Assembly (NCBI RefSeq): GCF_000826145.2
Contig: NZ_LN651336.1
Coordinates: 167,501-231,500, forward strand
DNA from: Sporosarcina koreensis
GTDB taxonomy: Bacteria > Bacillota > Bacilli > Bacillales_A > Planococcaceae
Direction of reading: 5' to 3'
DNA length: 64,000 nt
Shown here: positions 35,280-45,531 of the stretch, piece by piece
How positions within the stretch are numbered: the first letter of the stretch is position 1
Layout: each line of letters begins with the position of its first letter
Made by a program: the position numbers and the translations under genes
Notes under the pieces: generated by a model
What the model saw: the letters and a program-made list of their open reading frames with translations, nothing else
What the model was told of the DNA's origin: nothing
Database searches by the model: none

Positions 35280-36440
35280 TTAGTTTTTCTTTTTCGGCAT
35301 CGTGCGGGCTGAAGTGCCGACCGTCTTGGAATTGCCCTCGATCAGTTTTCCGCCGTGCCACACTTTCTGCACGGGCTTGTAGCCTTTTGAAAGTTTCCGG
35401 TAATCCCGTTCCTCCGCATAGGACAGCAGCGTCAGTACTTCTCCGTCCGCTCCCGCCCTGCCAGTCCGTCCGGAACGATGGACATACTGCTCGATCGTGT
35501 GCGGGACGTTGACATGGATGACATGCGTCAATCCTTCGATATCGAGTCCGCGTGCCGCGAGGTCGGTGGCGATGAGGATACGGATCTCCCCCTTCCGGAA
35601 CTTATCGAGCGTCTCCTGCCGCTCGAACTTCGTCATATCCGAATAGAGCACGCCGACGGGAGCGCCCTCGTATTGGAGTTTCATCTCTTTCATGCGCAGC
35701 TGGTCGACATTATTCAGGAATGCGAGTCCCCGCATGCCTTCCACGTGTGACAATCCCCGCAGGAGATCCGTTTTGTTCCTTACATCCGTCTTCACATACG
35801 AATGGATGACTTCCCCGGAGGCAGGCATCTCTTCGGCCGTCACTTTCAGCCGGATCGGGTCTTTCATGAAACGTGACGCCACGTCCTCAATCTCTTCCGT
35901 GATTGTCGCGGAGACGACAGCGACCTGCCGTCCTTCATGTGACGCCTCGATGATCCCTTTTACCATGACCCGGTTTTCGCGTGACAGCAGCTGGTCGCCC
36001 TCATCCAATATGATATGGCGGACTTCCGTCATCTTGAGCTTTTTGTTCTTGATGAGTTCCGCCAGCCGGCCTGGGGTCCCGACAACGATGGTCGGTTTCT
36101 TCTTCAGCTTCTCGATCTGACGCTGCATGTTGGCGCCGCCGATCAGCTGGGTGACCGTTACCTGTGTACCTGCCACCCATTCACGGATAACATTGACGAT
36201 CTGCATCGATAATTCCTGTGAAGGCGCGATGATCAGTGCCTGCGTCTGCTTTCTGCTGCCGTCTGTCAAATTCAGCAGCGGCAGTACGTACGCAAGCGTC
36301 TTTCCCGACCCTGTCGGTGATTCTGCGACAACATCACGTCCGGCCAGCATCTCCGGAATCATCTGTTCCTGGATGGGCATTGCGTTCTCGAATTTCCATT
36401 TTTCCTGAACCGTACGTTCAAATCCTTCTAAAAAGGACAT
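35280..36440 (-). CDS. yfmL: DEAD-box-family RNA helicase, YfmL-like
   Basis: 386 residues. Motif I is SPTGSGKT, GTPGRL is near 121-126, motif III is SAT, and RecA2 has ATDLAARGLD and HRSGRTGRAG. Motif II reads DEGD (D146-D149) instead of DEAD. B. subtilis YfmL takes part in ribosome assembly and cold fitness. The start is the ATG behind GAGGGG. The C-terminal tail is short and basic (SARTMPKKKN). Confidence 0.9.
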   Translation of the reverse strand: MSFLEGFERTVQEKWKFENAMPIQEQMIPEMLAGRDVVAESPTGSGKTLAYVLPLLNLTDGSRKQTQALIIAPSQELSMQIVNVIREWVAGTQVTVTQLIGGANMQRQIEKLKKKPTIVVGTPGRLAELIKNKKLKMTEVRHIILDEGDQLLSRENRVMVKGIIEASHEGRQVAVVSATITEEIEDVASRFMKDPIRLKVTAEEMPASGEVIHSYVKTDVRNKTDLLRGLSHVEGMRGLAFLNNVDQLRMKEMKLQYEGAPVGVLYSDMTKFERQETLDKFRKGEIRILIATDLAARGLDIEGLTHVIHVNVPHTIEQYVHRSGRTGRAGADGEVLTLLSYAEERDYRKLSKGYKPVQKVWHGGKLIEGNSKTVGTSARTMPKKKN

Positions 36441-36507
36441 AGCCATCCCCTCTTTCACTCTCTTCCTTCCAGTTTACCATAACTGGAGGTCCGCTTGTTA
36501 GTCACTT

Positions 36508-37965
36508 CTAGACAATTGAGGGTGTCTGCCTTGCCTGTGTCAGCTGTTCGAATGCATAGGCATAGCCGATCAGGTCCGGTTCCGAGAATGCTTCCCCTGT
36601 GAACGTCAGCCCGAATGGCTCGCCTTCCGCAGTTACACCAGACGGGACCGTGACGGACGGATAGCCTGCAGCCGCTTCAAAGCTGCAACCGTGATCCTGA
36701 GGGAATACGAGCACGTCCACCCCGTTTTCCTCCATCGCTTTCCCGAGAGCGACATTCTCAGCGAGATGGCGGTTCCGGATGAGTGCTTCAATATATGCAG
36801 GTTCCGTCAATCTGCCACTCCGATTGTTGATGTCCTTCAGCAGCTCCTGGCCATAAGCGAGGGTATCCGCCGGATGTTCTTCGTTGTAACGGATGATGTC
36901 ATCGACTGAGCGGATCGGGTTTACTGCAGGGGTCCTGCCGAGATACGCGTTCAGCGCGGCCTTGCACTCGTGCAGCAGTACGTCATACCATAAGTCATCT
37001 TCCTTCGTCCCTAAGTCGATCGTTCTGATAATCGCACCTGCCTGCTCCAGTACAGCCAGCGCCGACTCGAACAGCCCCATCCGTTCATCGGACACTTCGC
37101 GTGCGAAGATCGATCGGGCGACACCGACCCTGACGCCTGCCAGCGAATCCTTGGACAGGAAGCCAAGCCAATCGTCAGCCGCCCGGAATGGGCAGGTCGC
37201 TGTGACTGGGTCTTCCGGATCCTCTCCGAGCAACGCCTGGAATACGATAGCCGCATCTGAAACTGTTCTCGCCATCGGACCAGGCGTATCCTGCGATACC
37301 GACAGCGGAATGATGCCCCGCCTGCTGATGGCGCCGACGGTCGGTTTCAATCCGACAATCCCGTTCTGTGCAGCCGGATGGATGATCGACCCTGTCGTCT
37401 CCGTCCCCATGCATGCGGCTGCCAGACTTGCTGACGCGGCCACAGCGGAGCCCGAGCTTGAACCGCCGACTTCGAAGGGACCGTAAGGGTTTTTGACTTG
37501 CCCTCCGCGGGAACTGTAGCCGTTCGGCATATCCTCGGACAGGAAATTCGCCCATTCCGTCATATTCGTCTTTCCGAGAAGGACTGCTCCCGCTTCGCGC
37601 AGTTTTGCAGCCAGGAACGAATCGCGCGGCGCATAATAATCCGCAAGCGCCAGGCTGCCCGCGCTTGTATGCATCGCGTCTCCGGTATCCATGTTGTCTT
37701 TCAAAAGGATCGGGATCCCGTGCAGCATGGAACGTCTGCCTGTCTGCTGCCGCTCCCCGTCGAGCATCTGTGCAATCTGCAGTGCGTGCGGGTTCACTTC
37801 GAGAACAGCGTCCGTCTCCTGTCCGACAGTTGCTATCCGGTCCAAATAGAACAGGACCAATTGTTCGGCGGTCAGTCTGCCGTCCTCCATCGCCTGCTGC
37901 AGCGTCAAAATATCGGTATCGATCACCCAGCGGAACTTGTCCCGTATCGATGTACTGCTGTTCAT
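36508..37965 (-). CDS. Amidase signature family enzyme
   Basis: 485 residues. The Ser-cisSer-Lys triad is visible: Lys in PILLKDNMDTG, cis-Ser in GGSSSGSAVA and the nucleophile Ser in GTETTGSIIHPA. Such enzymes hydrolyse amides; the sequence differs from GatA, which lacks the extended N-terminus seen here, and GatCAB context is absent. It resembles the B. subtilis YerM/amidase-type enzymes. Substrate unknown. Ribosome site GGGGAG. The gap to yfmL downstream is 67 bases without a terminator. Confidence 0.87.
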   Translation of the reverse strand: MNSSTSIRDKFRWVIDTDILTLQQAMEDGRLTAEQLVLFYLDRIATVGQETDAVLEVNPHALQIAQMLDGERQQTGRRSMLHGIPILLKDNMDTGDAMHTSAGSLALADYYAPRDSFLAAKLREAGAVLLGKTNMTEWANFLSEDMPNGYSSRGGQVKNPYGPFEVGGSSSGSAVAASASLAAACMGTETTGSIIHPAAQNGIVGLKPTVGAISRRGIIPLSVSQDTPGPMARTVSDAAIVFQALLGEDPEDPVTATCPFRAADDWLGFLSKDSLAGVRVGVARSIFAREVSDERMGLFESALAVLEQAGAIIRTIDLGTKEDDLWYDVLLHECKAALNAYLGRTPAVNPIRSVDDIIRYNEEHPADTLAYGQELLKDINNRSGRLTEPAYIEALIRNRHLAENVALGKAMEENGVDVLVFPQDHGCSFEAAAGYPSVTVPSGVTAEGEPFGLTFTGEAFSEPDLIGYAYAFEQLTQARQTPSIV

Positions 37966-38040: not shown

Positions 38041-38190
38041 TTACACTTGCTTATAATATTCTTTCATGAGTGAGTAGAATGGAAGTTCATACAATTGCTT
38101 TCCGTCGATTTTAAAGATACCGCGATCCACCAGGCGCTGTATGACATCCTCGCGCTTCATATCCATTTTGGTTTCTTCGATTTTCATCAT
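38041..38190 (-). CDS. FbpA-type Fur-regulated basic protein (small)
   Basis: 49 residues, start ATG after AAGGAGG. VIQRLVDRGIFKIDGKQLYELPFYSLMKEY matches the FbpA-type pattern of a short helix, a FKI-GKQLYEL turn and a second helix. In B. subtilis FbpA is a small partner of the FsrA iron-sparing response. No convincing Fur box was seen upstream, so iron control of this copy is unproven. Members of this family are often missed because of their size. Confidence 0.7.
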   Translation of the reverse strand: MMKIEETKMDMKREDVIQRLVDRGIFKIDGKQLYELPFYSLMKEYYKQV

Positions 38191-38316: not shown

Positions 38317-39015
38317 TCAGCGATTTCTCAAAGGTGCACCACAACGGATGACTGTCGTTTCGGACAGAACACGGAGTGCGTCGATGAATCGGCTGCCGAG
38401 CGCCAGTTCCTCCTTCACGATCGACAGCTCGGTGCATCCGAGAATGATCCGGTCGCACTGCTGTGCTTCCATAGCGGCGGTGATTTCGTTCCAGACCGCT
38501 TCATCTGCAGGCTGTCCCGCTTTCACCTGATCATAGATGACACGCATCACCAGCTGCTGGGTGCTGTCATCGGGCACTACAGGTGTCAGTCCGGCCTGTC
38601 TGCAGGCATCCTGGTAGACGCCGGCCCGGATCGTACCTGTCGTCGCCAGAATCCCGACACGCACCGCCCCTTCCGCCGCCGCCCGATCCGCCGTCTCCCT
38701 CACCATATGGATAAGCGGAATGCCGATGGCCTGCTGGATATCTCTGTAGAATGTATGGGCCGTATTGCAGGGAATTGCAATGACATCAGCGCCGAGCGCC
38801 TCGAGCTTCTTCGCGTCTTCCACGAGCCGGGGCACAGGGTCCTCCTTCGTATCGTCCAGAATGAACGCCGTACGATCGGGAATTGCGGTGTCATTCAGGA
38901 TGATCATGTTGATGTGTTCCTGATCGGTCTTTGCATCGGTCAGCCTGACAACCATATTGCCGTAATACATCGTAGCCAGCGGACCGACACCGCCGATGAT
39001 TCCTAATGTTTTCAT
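38317..39015 (-). CDS. Aspartate/glutamate racemase family protein (RacX/YgeA-like)
   Basis: 232 residues. Two catalytic cysteines are C83 (IPCNTAHT) and C194 (LGCTELS), with the N-terminal IIGGVGPLAT. Members racemise Asp, Glu or other amino acids without cofactor. It is not MurI by motif set. It lies downstream of a FemX gene and a D-aspartate-ligase-like gene, so supplying D-Asp or D-Glu for the peptidoglycan bridge is the natural hypothesis. The ribosome site is weak (GAAAG), and a terminator separates it from femX. Confidence 0.87.
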   Translation of the reverse strand: MKTLGIIGGVGPLATMYYGNMVVRLTDAKTDQEHINMIILNDTAIPDRTAFILDDTKEDPVPRLVEDAKKLEALGADVIAIPCNTAHTFYRDIQQAIGIPLIHMVRETADRAAAEGAVRVGILATTGTIRAGVYQDACRQAGLTPVVPDDSTQQLVMRVIYDQVKAGQPADEAVWNEITAAMEAQQCDRIILGCTELSIVKEELALGSRFIDALRVLSETTVIRCGAPLRNR

Positions 39016-39118
39016 ATGTCATCTAACTTTCTGTACGGATTTTTCATATTTGATGAATGCTCTTCTTATAGGAACGAACGGATATCCGTTAAGTTCCGCC
39101 AGCAGGGGCCGGCAATTG

Positions 39119-39141
39119 AAAAAGAGCTGCCGGAGCAGCCC
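39119..39141 (-). terminator. Terminator after the FemX gene
   Basis: On the minus strand GGGCTGC, loop TCCG, GCAGCTC and five T. An outer AATTGAA/TTCAATT arm overlaps the FemX stop. Confidence 0.75.
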
Positions 39142-39145
39142 CTGT

Positions 39146-40195
39146 TCAATTGCGTTTCAGTTTTTTCTTCAGCTGCTGCACCTTCGGCACGACTTTCACG
39201 AACATGCTGTACAGGAACGGCTTGTAGACGTGATCGATTTCGCCGATATATGTTGTCACACTTTCCTCTTCATTATTGAAGAAACTCTTCTTGAATGAGT
39301 AGAGGCCGTCTTTTTCCGAATCCGTGCTGAAAATACCGCCTAAATCGTATGAAACCGCTCCTTCATCGAGTCCCCACTTCATCATTTCGAAGTTCATAAG
39401 ATGATTCGGGTTCATGTTGCGTTTGACGTTCGTGCTGCCGGCATAAAGATAATACATTTTACCGTTATAATTGATGGTGACAGCGCCGGCCAACTTGTCC
39501 CCTTCGTGCGTCATCAAATAGACGCGGAGACCTTCGAAGTTATCGCGGAGCTTGACGAAGTATTCATACGACCGTGTCGTGATATGGTTCCGCTCCGCCA
39601 TCGTCTTGTAAATGTCGTAGAACGCAGTGAGATAATCATCGGTCCGTGCCCAGGATGTCTCGACCCCTTTTTTCGCAGCACTGCGGATCAGGTTGCGTGT
39701 TTTTTTCCGGAAGCCCGCTATCAGTGTCTCCTCGTCCTTCCCGTCGAGCTGGACGATCATGTTCATGCGCGGCTGGATGAGATCATCCTTTCCAGCTTCC
39801 GAGTTGTGCACGGTGTAGCCGGCATCCCGGTAGATCCGGTCAAGCCGGTCATCGTATGCCGCTTCGGGATCCATCTTCAAAGCGAACGCTTTGTGCTTTT
39901 TCGCCAGCGGCTCAGCTTCTTTGATGAGCGCGGCCACTTTCTTTTCATCGTAAACATCACAGACAGGTCCGCGCGGTGCATAGAGCAGCGAATAACCGCC
40001 CGGTACGCGCTTGATGAGCAGGGACATTGCCGCGACAATCTCACCCTCTTCTTCCAGATATACTTGTTCATTGCCCCAATCGTCTTTAACGTGCGACCAG
40101 TTCAGGTCCTGTGTCAAAGCCCGATGAGGAGAGGACCGGATGAACGCATTGTAGCGTCCGACATCGGCCGCATTGTTTTTATCCAAAATTGGCAC
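39146..40195 (-). CDS. FemA/FemB/FemX-family aminoacyltransferase
   Basis: 349 residues, a duplicated GNAT fold with the coiled middle. Family motifs are PRGPVCD, GFRKKTRNLIRSAAKKGVE, the central YLYAGSTNVKRNMNPNHLMNFEMMKWG and YDLGGIFS. Such enzymes use aminoacyl-tRNA to add Gly, Ala or Ser to the Lys side chain of lipid II. It starts at GTG behind AAGGAGTG, 62 bases after the ATP-grasp ligase stop. The context points to interpeptide-bridge synthesis; which amino acid is added is not visible from sequence. Confidence 0.87.
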   Translation of the reverse strand: MPILDKNNAADVGRYNAFIRSSPHRALTQDLNWSHVKDDWGNEQVYLEEEGEIVAAMSLLIKRVPGGYSLLYAPRGPVCDVYDEKKVAALIKEAEPLAKKHKAFALKMDPEAAYDDRLDRIYRDAGYTVHNSEAGKDDLIQPRMNMIVQLDGKDEETLIAGFRKKTRNLIRSAAKKGVETSWARTDDYLTAFYDIYKTMAERNHITTRSYEYFVKLRDNFEGLRVYLMTHEGDKLAGAVTINYNGKMYYLYAGSTNVKRNMNPNHLMNFEMMKWGLDEGAVSYDLGGIFSTDSEKDGLYSFKKSFFNNEEESVTTYIGEIDHVYKPFLYSMFVKVVPKVQQLKKKLKRN

Positions 40196-40257
40196 TGAAT
40201 TGACACTCCTTAGCTGCAGTACACCTGCCGAGGACAGATGCGGCTGTACAATTGCCG

Positions 40258-41478
40258 TTAGTCTTTGTGTTTAAAATACTGATCGAACCGCTTGTAGTAG
40301 CTGCGGTAATAGTTGCGGAGTTTCAGCGTGCGCATCAGGTTCTTGTCCTGCTCGTAATACAGCGTGGACGCCGTCTTCCCTTCGCGGATAAGCCGTTTCA
40401 CCTGACTTTTGAGCTGATCGTCCATCGTGTACTTGACGAGCAGTTTAAGCGGCACCGCATGCCAGAGAACTTCGTTGCGGCCGTATTCCACGGGGTTGTC
40501 CCGATGATAGACACGGTCTTCCACCAAATACTTTGCCATGTTGTAGCCGTTCGCTGTGACGAAGAAACTGCTGCGTCCCTGACGGATGTTAAGTTCGAAG
40601 ATTTTATATTTGCCGTCCCGGCGGTCGTACTTCAAGTCGATATTCGCATAGCCGGTGAACCCGATCGCTTCAAGGAACGTTTTGTACTGGTCGTACAATG
40701 CCTGGTTCTCCTCGCCGACGATGCCGACGTAGTTGCCGATCAAAACCGGCGTGTAGTCTTCCAAGATCACATGTCCAAGGCACATCATCCGCACTTTGCC
40801 GTTGCGGTCGCAATACGCATTCAGCACGCGCATGACCGTATCATCGCCGGGAATGTAATCCTGGATAATCAGTTTCCCATCGTAAGACGAGCCGTAGATC
40901 TTCTCAATCGCATCGACATACTCCTCTTTTGTATGGAGGACGTACGCCTTTTTTTTCCCTTCGAACTGCGCGATGAAATAACGCATGCTGTCCGAAGGCT
41001 TGACGACAACCGGAAAGTCGAATGGAAGAGGAGCATGGGGATCCATGCCCTTTTCAAACATGACCGTGTCCGGGTAATCCAAGTTGTATTTCTCGGCCAT
41101 GTCGTAGAAGTTTTCTTTGAAGATAATGTCATCCATCATCTGTTCATCCACAAACGGCAATATGTAATAAGGTTCCAGCTCACTGCGGCTGCGGACCGCA
41201 AGCTCGACGTAGTTTTCATTGCTGGCAATCAATAGAAGTTTTTCCGTACGTTCCAGCAGATCATCTTTCAGCTGCAGAAGGCTCTTGACGAACACGGCAG
41301 GCTCGTCGAAGTCTGCAAAGATCCGTTTGTCGACGATCTTACTGTGCATCGTCGACAGCAGTTCGCCTTTCGTCGCCACGATGCTGACAATCCCATACTG
41401 TTCATGGAAAGCGCGTGCCATGCCGTATGCGTTGTCATCAGACCCGAGTATGACGGGCAGAAAATCCGTTTTTTCCAT
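40258..41478 (-). CDS. ATP-grasp ligase resembling D-aspartate ligase (Asl-Fm type)
   Basis: 406 residues. The N-terminal FLPVILGSDDNAYGMARAFHEQYG, the ATP-grasp lid region PVVVKPSDSMRYF, IIQDYIPGDDTVMRVLNAYCD, RMMCLGHVILEDYTP and the metal-binding ELNIRQGRSSFFV closely follow what I recall of the Enterococcus faecium D-aspartate ligase. That enzyme attaches D-Asp to Lys of the UDP-MurNAc-pentapeptide. Here the acceptor could be Lys or a FemX-added residue, with D-Asp or D-Glu as donor. The start is the ATG behind GGAGG; 18 upstream codons lack a ribosome site. First gene of the presumed bridge-forming pair with femX. Confidence 0.8.
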   Translation of the reverse strand: MEKTDFLPVILGSDDNAYGMARAFHEQYGIVSIVATKGELLSTMHSKIVDKRIFADFDEPAVFVKSLLQLKDDLLERTEKLLLIASNENYVELAVRSRSELEPYYILPFVDEQMMDDIIFKENFYDMAEKYNLDYPDTVMFEKGMDPHAPLPFDFPVVVKPSDSMRYFIAQFEGKKKAYVLHTKEEYVDAIEKIYGSSYDGKLIIQDYIPGDDTVMRVLNAYCDRNGKVRMMCLGHVILEDYTPVLIGNYVGIVGEENQALYDQYKTFLEAIGFTGYANIDLKYDRRDGKYKIFELNIRQGRSSFFVTANGYNMAKYLVEDRVYHRDNPVEYGRNEVLWHAVPLKLLVKYTMDDQLKSQVKRLIREGKTASTLYYEQDKNLMRTLKLRNYYRSYYKRFDQYFKHKD

Positions 41479-41604
41479 GAGGCTCCTCCATTCCGGGACA
41501 GCAAAACAGCGCAGGGGCGCGTGTTCAATCACTGTCCGTACCTGTCACAAGTTTAGCCTACCCCCTATTGCAAGTCAAGAAACGGAGGCGGCCTTATACA
41601 GACG

Positions 41605-41636
41605 GAAAAAAGCCGCTCCGGTTCCCCGGAACGGCC
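41605..41636 (-). terminator. Terminator of the YebC-family gene
   Basis: On the minus strand GCCGTTCCGG, loop GGAA, CCGGAGCGGC and six T. Confidence 0.9.
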
Positions 41637-41641
41637 AGTCA

Positions 41642-42364
41642 TTACTCGTTTTCGAGATCGACGTTATGGTAGACCTGCTGCACATCTTCCAGATCTTCGA
41701 TGGCATCGATCATCTTTTCAAACTGCTCGGCAGCTTCCGGATCCAGCTGGACATCATTCTGCGCGATCATCATCAGTTCCGCTACGGTGAACTCAGTGAT
41801 GCCCTCTGCTTTGAACGCTTCCTGCACATCGTGGAATGCGGATGGGTCCGCGTAGACGAGCACTTGTCCGTCCTCTTCCGAAATATCATTGACGTCGACG
41901 TCATGCTCCATCATCAGCTCCAGTACGTCATCCGCTGTTTTGCCTTCGACACCGAATACCGCCGTATGGTCGAACATGTATGCGACCGAGCCGCTGACTC
42001 CCATGTTGCCGCCGTTTTTGCCGAACGCTGCACGCACTTCGGAGGCTGTCCGGTTAACGTTGTTTGTCAGTGCATCGACAATGACCATGGAGCCGTTCGG
42101 TCCGAAGCCTTCATAGCGGAGTTCGTCGTAATTCTCGTCGCCTCCGCCTTTTGCTTTCTCAATTGCCCGCTCGATGATCGTTTTCGGAACGCTGTACGTC
42201 TTCGCACGCTCCAGAACGATCTTCAGCGCCTGGTTCGATTCCGGATCCGGTTCCCCCTGTTTCGCTGCTACATATATTTCACGGCCGAATTTTGCGTAAA
42301 TCCGGCTGGTGTTCGCATCTTTTGACGCCTTCTTTTCTTTGATGTTGTTCCACTTACGGCCCAT
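41642..42364 (-). CDS. yeeI: YebC/PmpR-family protein, YeeI type
   Basis: 240 residues, with the N-terminal signature [20 protein letters not shown] and [17 protein letters not shown]. This is the YeeI branch, distinct from the YrbC branch. YebC proteins were long annotated as transcription regulators; recent work in Bacillus and mitochondria describes them as factors that relieve ribosome stalling at proline runs, and YeeI was named YebC2 there (from memory). The ribosome site is weak, and the ATG directly precedes the conserved start. Confidence 0.92.
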
Positions 42365-42530
42365 TGTGACCACTCGCTTTCTGTTTGCAGAATCAGTTGT
42401 AATTTCCTTACTCCTCAGTATATCATGACTGAATTCAATGGGAAAAGGAAAAACCGCCCGAAGAACCGAGTTGCAGGTTCACCGAAAGTATGGCAAAGTG
42501 GTAGTTGGATAGACTAATTTCATCACTGAC

Positions 42531-42679
42531 AATATGTAGGGGTACCGGACAACCGGTTGAGATGCAGATTCTGCAGACCCTTTGAACCTGATCTGGGTAA
42601 CGCCAGCGGAGGGAACATATTCATTGCATAATGATTATGTGACGCGCACTCCTGCTGTATGGGAGTGCGCGTTTTCTTG
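42531..42679 (+). promoter_or_regulatory. TPP riboswitch with downstream terminator
   Basis: The thi-box aptamer spans about 42531-42617. GGGGTACC opens P1/P2, GGTTGAGATGC is the conserved J3-2/P3 strand, and ACCCTTTGAACCTGATCTGGGTAA with CCAGCGGAGGGAA completes P4/P5 and closes the helix. At 42643-42679 GCGCACTCC and GGAGTGCGC form a terminator followed by TTTTC. Binding of thiamine pyrophosphate should therefore stop transcription before thiY. I did not find a clear promoter in the 150 bases upstream. Confidence 0.95.
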
Positions 42680-42710
42680 TTGCAGTGTGAACCAACAGGA
42701 GGGAAACGGA

Positions 42711-43715
42711 TTGAAACGATTGACAGGCATCCTGCTTCCCGCCATGCTTCTGCTCGGCGCATGCGGAAGCGGAAGCGGCGGTGAAAACGCCGAGGATACA
42801 GGCAGTAGTAAGGACTCCGTGAAAAATGTCCGCTTTGCGCTCGATTGGACGCCGAACACGAACCACACGGGAATCTATGTTGCTCAGGAAAAAGGCTATT
42901 TCAAGGATGAAGGGCTGAACGTGGAAATCATCATGCCGGGCGAGGCGGGAGCTGACCAGCTCGTCGCATCAGGAAAAGCAGAATTCGGAATAGGTGCACA
43001 GGAAGCGCTGACCGAGGCGCGCGCAGCGGATATCCCGATCGTCTCGATCGCCGCGCTTATCCAGCACAACACATCGGGCTTCGCTTCCCTGAAAGAAGAA
43101 GGAATTGAATCCCCGAAAGACTTCGAAGGCAAAAACTATGGCGGCTGGGGCGCACCTGTTGAACAGGCTGTCGTCAAATCACTCATGGAGCAGGATGGCG
43201 GCGACGTCAGCAAAGTGAATTTCATCAACATGGGGTCTTCCGACTTTTTCACGGCAATCCGGCGGGATGTGGATCTGGCCTGGGTGTATTACGGCTGGAC
43301 AGGAGTCGAAGCCGAGATGCGGGGCATGGAACTCAACATGCAGTACTTGAAGGATTATTCCGATAAGCTCGATTATTACACACCGGTCCTGACGACTGGC
43401 GAAAAGCTGATCAACAAGGATCCGGACACCGTCAGGGCATTCACAGCCGCCACAGTGAAAGGTTATGAGTTCGCGATTGAAAATCCCGAGGAAGCTGCGG
43501 AAATTCTGGCGAATGCCGTACCTGACCTGGACCCGGAACTCGTGAAGAAAAGCCAGCAGTGGCTCTCTCCGAAATATCAGGATGACGCCCCGCGTTTCGG
43601 CGAGCAAAAGCTTGAAACCTGGACAAACTATGCGGACTGGATGAAAGAAAACGGGCTGCTTGACGGGGAATTCATTCCCGAAGACGCATTCACAAACGAC
43701 TTTTTACCGAATTGA
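42711..43715 (+). CDS. thiY: Thiamine-precursor (HMP/FAMP) binding lipoprotein, ThiY-like
   Basis: 334 residues, NMT1/THI5-like periplasmic-binding fold. The signal peptide ends in LLGAC (C18 is the lipidated residue). The family motifs FALDWTPNTNHTGIYVAQEKGYF and VASGKAEFGIGAQEAL are present. ThiY proteins bind N-formyl-4-amino-5-aminomethyl-2-methylpyrimidine for salvage. The start is TTG behind AGGAGGG, right after the riboswitch terminator, so the gene is under TPP control. Confidence 0.93.
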   Translation: MKRLTGILLPAMLLLGACGSGSGGENAEDTGSSKDSVKNVRFALDWTPNTNHTGIYVAQEKGYFKDEGLNVEIIMPGEAGADQLVASGKAEFGIGAQEALTEARAADIPIVSIAALIQHNTSGFASLKEEGIESPKDFEGKNYGGWGAPVEQAVVKSLMEQDGGDVSKVNFINMGSSDFFTAIRRDVDLAWVYYGWTGVEAEMRGMELNMQYLKDYSDKLDYYTPVLTTGEKLINKDPDTVRAFTAATVKGYEFAIENPEEAAEILANAVPDLDPELVKKSQQWLSPKYQDDAPRFGEQKLETWTNYADWMKENGLLDGEFIPEDAFTNDFLPN

Positions 43716-43728
43716 GGAGGAACCCGAA

Positions 43729-44019
43729 ATGGCTAACGCACTTGTCAGCATTCAAATCATCCCGAAGACACCGAACGGAGAGGATGTCATCCCGTACGTG
43801 GATGCCGCGATCGAAGTGATCGACAGCTCCGGAGTCCCTTACCGGGTTGCGCCGCTCGAGACGACGATGGAAGGTGAACTCACTGAACTCCTCGGAATCA
43901 TCGAGAAGATGAACACCAGGATGACGGAGCTAGGTGCCGTAAGTGTCATTTCCCAAGTGAAGATCTATATGAACCCTGAAGGCGCGTCCATGGGCAGGCT
44001 GACGGAGAAGTACGATTGA
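43729..44019 (+). CDS. Thiamine-binding protein of the MTH1187/YkoF-like family
   Basis: 96 residues, DUF77-type ferredoxin-like fold: LVSIQIIPKTPNGEDVIPYVDAAI, YRVAPLETTMEG and SQVKIYMNPEG. Members bind thiamine or pyrimidine derivatives in the cytoplasm; YkoF of B. subtilis carries two such domains. Located between the binding-protein and permease genes of a TPP-controlled operon, it probably buffers or channels the imported precursor. Its stop overlaps the permease start (TTGA). Confidence 0.87.
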   Translation: MANALVSIQIIPKTPNGEDVIPYVDAAIEVIDSSGVPYRVAPLETTMEGELTELLGIIEKMNTRMTELGAVSVISQVKIYMNPEGASMGRLTEKYD

Positions 44020-44792
44020 GCACGTTATGGAAAAAAGGATGGCGGCCCGCTGCGGTCCTCATCCTTTTGCTCTTTCTGTGGGAAGCTGCTGTCCGGCTGT
44101 TCAGCGTTCCCGCCTGGCTTCTCCCCAGACCGTCAGGGATTGTGGCAGAAGCTGTGACTGGTTCGGCACTTTATTTACCGCACATCGTATCGACGATCAC
44201 CTTGTCCGCCGCCGGCTATTTCGCGGGGCTTACAGTCGGCATCGGCACAGCTGTCGTCCTGTTCCGTGCGCCGGCGCTGCAGCAGGCGTTCTACCCGCTG
44301 CTCATCCTCTCGCAGAACATCCCGGTGATCGTCCTGGCACCGCTTCTGGTCATCTGGTTCGGCTTCGGCATCCTGCCGAAAGTGATCGTCATTACACTCG
44401 TCTGTTTCTTTCCGGTTACGATCGCCGCACTGGATGGGTTCCGCCAGACGGACCGCGATATGCTTCACTATCTGAAGATGATCGGTGCCTCGGACCGGCA
44501 GATTTTCTGGAAACTGCAATGGCCGCATGCGCTTCCTTCCCTATTCTCGGGACTGAAGATTGCTGCAACCTACAGTGTCATGGGCGCTGTCATTTCGGAA
44601 TGGCTCGGCGCAAGCAAGGGCATCGGTGTCTATATGACCCTTGCCTCTTCATCGTTCAAGACGGACCGGGTATTTGTCGCGATTGTTCTGATCATGGTGC
44701 TGAGCCTTCTCTATTTCGGGCTCATATCCATGGTTGAAAAAGCCGTGCTCCGTACACGCGGCAAAGGAGGGACTGCAGATGGCGCAGCTTGA
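44016..44792 (+). CDS. thiX: ABC transporter permease for thiamine precursors, ThiX-like
   Basis: 258 residues with about six membrane helices. The SsuC/ThiX/TauC-type EAA loop lies near YLKMIGASDRQIFWKLQWPHALPSLFSGLK. The start is TTG overlapping the preceding stop, with GGAGAAG upstream. It overlaps thiZ by 14 bases. Specificity is taken from operon context and riboswitch control. Confidence 0.9.
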   Translation: MSTLWKKGWRPAAVLILLLFLWEAAVRLFSVPAWLLPRPSGIVAEAVTGSALYLPHIVSTITLSAAGYFAGLTVGIGTAVVLFRAPALQQAFYPLLILSQNIPVIVLAPLLVIWFGFGILPKVIVITLVCFFPVTIAALDGFRQTDRDMLHYLKMIGASDRQIFWKLQWPHALPSLFSGLKIAATYSVMGAVISEWLGASKGIGVYMTLASSSFKTDRVFVAIVLIMVLSLLYFGLISMVEKAVLRTRGKGGTADGAA

Positions 44793-45531
44793 ACTGCATA
44801 ACATAGCGAAGTCGTACGGAACGAACCATGTCCTTGATGCAATTTCGCTGACTGTCGGTGATGGTGAATTCGTCTCAGTCCTCGGTCCGTCGGGGAGCGG
44901 AAAAAGTACGATCTTCCAGCTGATCGGCGGCTTGTATCCGCCCGACAGCGGCACGATATCCCTCGATGGAACGGTAGTGAACGGATCGAGAGGCCATATC
45001 AGCTACATGCCCCAGAGCCCCGCGCTGTTCCCGTGGCGCACCGTACTGCAGAATGTGCAGCTCAGTGCGGAAATCGCAGGCACTGCACAGGATACGGAGA
45101 AGACGCTCGGCCTGATACAGAGCGCCGGTCTTGCAGGCTATGAGCATGCGTACCCCGGTGAATTATCGGGCGGCATGAAGCAGCGTGTGTCGTTCATCCG
45201 GAGTCTGAATGCGCCGCAGCCGATCATCTGCCTCGACGAACCGTTTTCGGCGCTCGATGAATTCACACGCCTTGAAATGCAGCAGTGGCTGCTGTCCATC
45301 TGGGAAGCGAACCGGAAGTCGATCCTGTTCATCACCCATGATATCGACGAAGCCCTGTTCCTTTCCGACCGGATTCTCGTGCTGTCGAACAAACCCGCAG
45401 TGGTGAAACGGGATCTGACTGTACCGTTCGCACGGCCGCGATCCGAGGAGCTGCTGCTCAGTGAAGAGTTCCTCCAGCTGAAACGCGATATCTACGATGA
45501 TCTCCGAAAAGAAATACATTCCAGCAACTGA
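44779..45531 (+). CDS. thiZ: ABC transporter ATP-binding protein for thiamine precursors, ThiZ-like
   Basis: 250 residues. Walker A is GPSGSGKST, the Q-loop is MPQSPALFPWRT, the signature is LSGGMKQRV and Walker B is IICLDEPFSALD. It is of the SsuB/TauB/NitT class that energises pyrimidine, nitrate and sulfonate uptake. The start is the ATG behind AAAGGAGGG. Last gene of the TPP-controlled operon. Confidence 0.92.
   Translation: MAQLELHNIAKSYGTNHVLDAISLTVGDGEFVSVLGPSGSGKSTIFQLIGGLYPPDSGTISLDGTVVNGSRGHISYMPQSPALFPWRTVLQNVQLSAEIAGTAQDTEKTLGLIQSAGLAGYEHAYPGELSGGMKQRVSFIRSLNAPQPIICLDEPFSALDEFTRLEMQQWLLSIWEANRKSILFITHDIDEALFLSDRILVLSNKPAVVKRDLTVPFARPRSEELLLSEEFLQLKRDIYDDLRKEIHSSN

Follow-up and report, generated by a model that had tools for sequence, protein, structure and literature searches.

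The window analysed here, a 64,000-nucleotide stretch of the Sporosarcina koreensis genome (RefSeq assembly GCF_000826145.2, contig NZ_LN651336.1, positions 167,501 to 231,500), contains three neighbouring genes with a predicted role in building the interpeptide bridge of peptidoglycan: an ATP-grasp ligase, a FemX enzyme and an aspartate racemase (Table 1). The initial annotation had placed all three on one strand, and its coordinates held, with every gene intact. The longest form of the ligase reading frame starts at 41532, and the ATG at 41478 has the good ribosome-binding site GGAGGAG ahead of it; the start codon of FemX is a GTG preceded by AAGGAG, and the ribosome-binding site of the racemase is weak. 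The ligase and FemX are separated by 62 bases, each has a good ribosome-binding site, and judging from the sequence they look like one transcription unit. The racemase follows after 130 bases that contain a terminator-like hairpin, and it may have a promoter of its own or depend on read-through. Promoter-like sites in the region (6, against a shuffle mean of 4.2) are not clearly above chance, and terminator-like sites number 8 against a shuffle mean of 4.6.

Table 1. Genes and signals at the candidate bridge locus, in window positions.
Feature	Position	Strand	Basis
ATP-grasp D-amino-acid ligase (predicted D-Asp), type C	40258..41478	-	Predicted fold, Latilactobacillus curvatus homology, tree clade
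FemX (predicted to add one L-amino acid or Gly to L-Lys in a tRNA-dependent reaction)	39146..40195	-	PF02388, Weissella viridescens FemX match
Aspartate racemase, catalytic-type cysteines Cys83 and Cys194	38317..39015	-	PF01177, TIGR00035, 1JFL match
Promoter-like site ahead of the ligase	41550..41578	-	9/12 consensus positions
Terminator-like hairpin behind yebC, bounding the ligase-FemX unit upstream	41611..41636	-	
Terminator-like hairpin directly after FemX	39122..39143	-	
DEAD-box helicase, conserved neighbour marking the site	35280..36458	-	
Amidase, frequent site neighbour without an assigned role in the bridge pathway	36508..37965	-	
YebC/PmpR family gene, neighbour on the other side	41642..42373	-	

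The ligase matched no Pfam family at E ≤ 0.001, a match to PRK12767 was weak and under the cut-off, and a single-sequence search of the PDB returned chance-level matches only. A profile search recovered carbamoyl-phosphate synthase ATP-grasp domains (E = 1.3e-5). The AlphaFold2 model scored a predicted local distance difference test value (pLDDT) of 93.2 and a predicted template modelling score (pTM) of 0.90, and its comparison with PDB structures in Foldseek found ATP-grasp enzymes, including PylC and L-amino-acid ligases. We are confident in the ATP-grasp fold predicted by this model. Over 407 columns, the protein shares 40% identity with a ligase of Latilactobacillus curvatus, a species that we take to have a D-Asp bridge and in which the ligase gene adjoins that of a racemase. 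A related ligase in Lactobacillus crispatus adjoins an asparagine synthase; that of L. fermentum has neither a racemase nor an asparagine synthase annotated alongside.

FemX is the sole FemAB gene found in the window's own genome, which is 93% complete. It matched PF02388 with 170 bits (gathering score 24) and the PDB FemX of W. viridescens over its full length (E = 5e-62). Residues K37, D109, R208 and K302 are invariant across 17 homologues and align with what we assume to be precursor-site residues of the Weissella enzyme. The racemase matched PF01177 (160 bits) and TIGR00035 (238.6 bits, cut-off 93.1), and its nearest solved structure is the aspartate racemase 1JFL (E = 6.5e-52), with whose cysteines Cys83 and Cys194 align; these are presumably catalytic. 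The same genome has two murE genes, one with a DDPR and one with a DNPR motif (C4:1135169-1136548 and C4:1066088-1067431; L202, L203), motifs that we take to be assigned to Lys and diaminopimelate (DAP); perhaps one serves L-Lys in the vegetative wall and the other DAP in the spore cortex. An asparagine synthase was not found in it, in a search that ran without a positive control and so shows little.

Conservation of the set was assessed in 68 Sporosarcina genomes and 200 genomes of the family Planococcaceae (G-numbers below denote genomes, and L-numbers the loci or sequence rows compared). By identity to the window ligase, the genus ligases fall into type C (at least 68%), type A (41-44%) and type B (36-40%). 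Type C occurs in 13 genomes, two of them of the window's species (its own genome and one more), and type A in four, one of which also carries a type B copy; the other 51 have type B only, with one broken ligase gene among them. All 13 type C genomes have both a racemase orthologue (at least 56% identity; racemase-like matches at 23-32% were left out) and FemX, the latter always within 70 bases of the ligase, and because the set is kept in 13 of 13, the grouping of the three genes is not due to chance. The type A genomes have the racemase (4/4) and no FemX (0/4), and those with type B only have FemX in 15 of 51, always within 2.3 kb of the ligase, and never the racemase orthologue (0/51).

The initial annotation had also proposed, as a check, co-occurrence of the three genes with bridge type across the family. 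A ligase relative at E ≤ 1e-5 is present in 200/200 family genomes, and with A/C-like ligases split from the others by E-value, the racemase is found in 101/101 genomes with the former versus 1/99 of the rest; because of the kinship among the genomes, we attach no probability to this count. The lone exception, G040 (L235), has a divergent ligase (34%) near a racemase at the same site, without FemX, and is a close relative of Bhargavaea type C. Both ligase kinds occur within 7 of 19 genera (the fragmented genome G184 left aside), and the link between racemase and ligase was therefore not inherited once. In some family genomes (e.g., G093, G149 and G177) the racemase lies elsewhere, away from the ligase. 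FemX under a strict threshold (E ≤ 1e-30) is found in 26 of 200; 45 further genomes with weaker FemAB matches only were left out.

We propose, with a probability of roughly three in four, that the three genes make a mixed A4-alpha bridge, L-Lys-X-D-Asp, in which X is Gly, L-Ala or L-Ser. FemX would move X from transfer RNA (tRNA) onto the L-Lys side chain of the wall precursor and the racemase would convert L-Asp to D-Asp, which the ligase would activate with ATP and join to the amino group of the FemX-added residue, yielding L-Lys-X-D-Asp; in this scheme we infer the substrates, the order of the two additions and the use of D-Asp rather than D-Glu. That D-residues are added by ATP-grasp ligases, and Gly or L-residues by Fem enzymes, is already stated in an excerpt of PMC2922099. 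Support for the earlier suggestion that FemX and a D-amino-acid ligase together signify a mixed A4-alpha bridge comes from co-occurrence, synteny, gene trees and the case of S. ureae, and the role given to the racemase, the supply of D-Asp or D-Glu, can now be refined: racemase and ligase type point to D-Asp, which is more likely than D-Glu in the window bridge.

The L-Lys-Gly-D-Glu type belongs, we assume, to S. ureae itself, a species that Linnett, Roberts and Strominger reportedly studied. The genome of S. ureae DSM 2281 (L084) encodes FemX and a type B ligase, with no racemase orthologue, and because this species combines FemX and type B with L-Lys-Gly-D-Glu, type B is predicted to use D-Glu, and types A and C D-Asp. 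For Sporosarcina, an excerpt of PMC5786688 gives L-Lys-Gly-D-Glu.

The window cluster is one among several alternative gene sets at one chromosomal site. Of 34 genus genomes whose loci were read at length, 32 have the ligase no more than about 4.5 kb from the same helicase, the exceptions being G216 and G209; a second ligase copy in G235 is on a short contig without the helicase. The sets found there are type A with racemase, type C with FemX and racemase, type B alone and type B with FemX, and in the S. ureae group a chemotaxis gene stands between the parts of the last. On a tree of 52 loci built from the helicase, which is near the site and outside the exchanged set, the gene set changed at least 11 times. 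Parts of this tree are weak (12 of 48 inner branches are open), and its strong branches alone force six changes for type C, four for type A and two for each type B state; the number of changes would be smaller if the helicase moved together with the set, as it could. Two close sisters on the tree (support 99), G021 with type A and G066 with type C, differ in FemX and ligase type and share the racemase. Nearest to the window trio stand rows that have type B and no FemX (fork support 80). Two loci near the window lineage at this fork, L174 and L309, have the type B ligase at the same site in opposite orientation, with neither FemX nor racemase and with D163, the residue of FemX-linked ligases.

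In a ligase tree built by a quick method, the type C ligases form a clade of 15 rows with FemX and racemase (support 94) and the FemX-linked type B ligases one of 17 rows (support 100), and neither holds a Planococcaceae ligase without FemX. Sporosarcina sp. NCCP-2716 and Bhargavaea cecembensis T14 are examples of type C strains. These FemX-linked clades may reflect a switch in acceptor, with the FemX-added residue taking the place of Lys. In the FemX tree, the FemX of the window trio grouped weakly with type B FemX and not with other type C FemX (support 86, fork open), so that FemX may have moved between gene sets. On balance, we slightly favour the view that this one Planococcaceae site is a bridge-type locus, at which whole sets are swapped between relatives and set the bridging residues, with the ligase that follows FemX being distinct and its acceptor shifted from Lys to the FemX-added residue. 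The FemX proteins of the actinobacterium Ornithinimicrobium (L106, L109, L112) fall inside a FemX set of 38 rows (support 99) that is otherwise mostly from Planococcaceae, a placement that suggests transfer between phyla; in O. tianjinense, a distant relative of the ligase is encoded at another place in the genome.

Two residue signatures were considered. At 17 donor positions that separate types A and C from type B, three lactobacilli ligases had 12-14 Asp-like and 0-1 Glu-like residues; type B being one clade, this signature may reflect ancestry rather than function, and Lacticaseibacillus copies beside FemX and Anaerococcus ligases mostly follow neither pattern. Position 163 was considered as a single acceptor-specificity residue (D with FemX, N without). 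D163 was found in 34/34 sequences with FemX and 2/32 without in the discovery set of 66, and in 53 further sequences (60 minus seven duplicates of the first set) the FemX genomes had D in 3/3 and the FemX-free ones N in 44/50 and D in 6/50, the six sharing one sequence motif. Outside the family the rule fails, and it was rejected as more than a lead: D163 occurs in L. curvatus, L. crispatus and L. fermentum, where the sequence inspected shows no annotated FemX, and in a second L. kribbianus copy, Alloiococcus and Ornithinimicrobium with no FemX beside the ligase, and N163 occurs despite FemX in Vagococcus salmoninarum, Periweissella and Alkalibacterium.

The window FemX is 66% identical to that of S. 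ureae, a species of the same genus that is taken as the D-Glu type, and this, like the weak grouping with type B FemX, would also suit a bridge ending in D-Glu (L-Lys-X-D-Glu), with the racemase making D-Glu or serving otherwise. We regard such a bridge as unlikely, given that a murI-type glutamate racemase (269 bits, cut-off 147) is encoded separately in the genome, that the extra racemase is absent from every one of the 51 genomes with type B only, S. ureae included, and that the residue pattern of the ligase is that of type A and lactobacilli ligases, which shared ancestry could explain. The sequences fix no order of addition, and both enzymes could act on the Lys side chain, so that the ligase and FemX might instead act in parallel on different Lys residues and give a wall with two bridge types. 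This is improbable: both genes occur in S. ureae, a member of a genus for which a Gly-D-Glu bridge is reported (excerpt of PMC5786688), and FemX-linked Planococcaceae ligases form their own clades in two ligase types, as expected if the acceptor changed.

A role for the racemase in sulfonate metabolism, as a cysteate racemase (CuyB) unrelated to the wall, was rejected as very improbable on the strength of its co-occurrence with ligase type (101/101 versus 1/99) and of the unspecific CuyB model, even though it passes that NCBI model (NF052483; 222.8 bits, cut-off 190) and an ABC transporter at 42582-45531, whose binding protein has a sub-cut-off match to a sulfonate family, would fit. The CuyB cut-off is also passed by 3/3 other cluster racemases tested (two beside type A, one near type C), and the L. 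curvatus racemase beside its ligase falls 5 bits short; the transporter set includes thiamine-binding and NMT1/THI5-like binding proteins; and for a cysteate-breakdown partner the genome offers only a weak match (31.8 bits) to TIGR01275, the model used, which is not CuyA-specific.

Besides the CuyB score, several observations weigh against L-Lys-X-D-Asp or parts of its argument. A terminator-like hairpin divides FemX from the racemase, and FemX reached 277 bits against the 500-bit cut-off of the NCBI FemX alanyltransferase equivalog NF047883. Outside the family, the FemX-linked ligases do not group in a single clade: the tree requires six changes of the FemX label, and the ligase of Alkalibacterium (L103), which FemX adjoins, falls outside the clade of type B with FemX. 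Periweissella beninensis has FemX and a ligase 2 kb apart, which fits the Gly-D-Glu bridge reported for its sister P. cryptocerci in an excerpt of PMC10758620, but by residue signature this ligase is Asp-like (12 Asp-like and 1 Glu-like of 17). In the open-access literature, no published wall chemistry was found for any type C species, nor for the window's strain. S. highlanderae is published as L-Lys-L-Ala-D-Asp (excerpt of PMC10628120), and its probable genome (G162, L299) has type B without FemX or a racemase orthologue; the species was accordingly dropped as support for L-Lys-L-Ala-D-Asp in type C. G162 shares 84.7% DNA identity over 15 kb with S. thermotolerans (G236, L298), for which the published average nucleotide identity is 85.3%, and its G+C content is 39.5% in the 40 kb sampled versus 41.6% published for S. 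highlanderae. The genotype of both genomes predicts L-Lys-D-Glu. In agreement with the proposed rule, type B without FemX or racemase was found in G054, tentatively Tetzosporium hominis VT-49 (L-Orn-D-Glu), and in G045 and G028, tentatively Kurthia massiliensis and K. senegalensis (L-Lys-D-Glu).

Outside the Planococcaceae, relatives of FemX were sought with an alignment as query, and the best 80 of 100 were kept as loci. A ligase relative lies within flanks of up to 8 kb in 43 of these 80, including all of the first 24 rows, and when 28 genomes of FemX loci were searched whole, 20 had a ligase (called at E ≤ 1e-70). No ligase at E ≤ 1e-5 was found in six of the 28 (Negativibacillus, Clostridium tunisiense, two Enterococcus, Anaerococcus vaginalis and Fructilactobacillus), and in W. 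viridescens and W. minor the only match (3e-6) lies within a 1068-amino-acid frame, carbamoyl-phosphate-synthase-like by size. FemX alone therefore does not imply a ligase of the type studied. In keeping with the proposed roles, it occurs without one in Fructilactobacillus sanfranciscensis, which has an L-Ala bridge, as in both Weissella species; for these, an excerpt of PMC10758620 gives Ala and Ser, in the case of W. minor by its statement on the genus.

Asparagine synthase, the amidating partner known from D-Asp bridges, adjoins several related clusters, which favours the proposed reading. Five Paenibacillus loci (L122, L124, L126, L127, L128) hold asparagine synthase, ligase and FemX together, four of them with a racemase relative in the stretch, although Paenibacillus is known for direct DAP cross-links. 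L071 and L072 (L120, Lysinibacillus composti) combine a FemX-ligase cluster with asparagine synthase and a MurJ/flippase-like gene, the racemase lying elsewhere (G149, G177); Lysinibacillus is given as Lys-Asp in an excerpt of PMC6971209. Three unannotated phage records (LT985590.1, OR847535.1 and OR848680.1) contain ligase relatives of 42-45% identity, which could be host DNA, and a record titled Arthrobacter beigongshangensis REN13 (L098) is probably mislabelled and likely a genome of the window's genus (G140). In the window itself, a small gene between the racemase and the amidase (38043-38190, minus strand) belongs to the Fur-regulated basic protein A family, and the plus-strand genes at 42582-45531, encoding an NMT1/THI5-like binding protein, a thiamine-binding protein, a permease and an ATPase, likely form a thiamine-precursor transporter.

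The arrangement resembles the AslA/Aslfm and RacD systems of Lactococcus lactis, Enterococcus faecium and lactobacilli, in which an ATP-grasp ligase is likewise near an aspartate racemase. The racD-aslA pair is known, and racemase and an amidating asparagine synthase are described as D-Asp-bridge partners in lactic acid bacteria in an excerpt of PMC4155827. The likeness was drawn through lactobacilli and not through the E. faecium or L. lactis proteins: the ligase and racemase of L. curvatus are 40% and 39% identical to those of the window, and no FemX is annotated in the L. curvatus stretch covered. AslA/RacD systems put D-Asp directly on Lys, whereas the window has FemX between the ligase and racemase genes, and its ligase belongs to a FemX-associated clade. 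The FemX of W. viridescens, an L-Ala transferase, is of the same family over its full length, but that species lacks a ligase of the type studied, and has the Ala/Ser bridge noted above (excerpt of PMC10758620); the window protein scores below the cut-off of the alanyltransferase equivalog. At the S. ureae bridge locus, in the same chromosomal position and with the same helicase nearby, FemX likewise accompanies an ATP-grasp ligase; this ligase is of type B and there is no aspartate racemase orthologue, whereas the window combines type C with the racemase. PylC, which couples D-ornithine to the side chain of L-lysine, has the same fold as the window ligase (Foldseek ranks 6, 8 and 30) and performs similar chemistry, albeit at only 12-13% identity and with other substrates. 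Each enzyme type was already known; what is new is their combination in one set, the site of set exchange and the ligase clades linked with FemX.

For decades, interpeptide bridges have served in the classification of Gram-positive bacteria. As far as the open-access literature shows, mixed bridges have a known chemistry without assigned genes; no open-access paper assigning genes to one was found, subscription journals being mostly outside this coverage. If the site is indeed a bridge-type locus, the bridge chemotype would be predictable from the genome. A simple rule, by which racemase and ligase type give the D-residue and FemX the second residue, would let genomes reveal wall type, and it could be checked where the older chemistry is superficial and tested on sister species that differ in their gene set.

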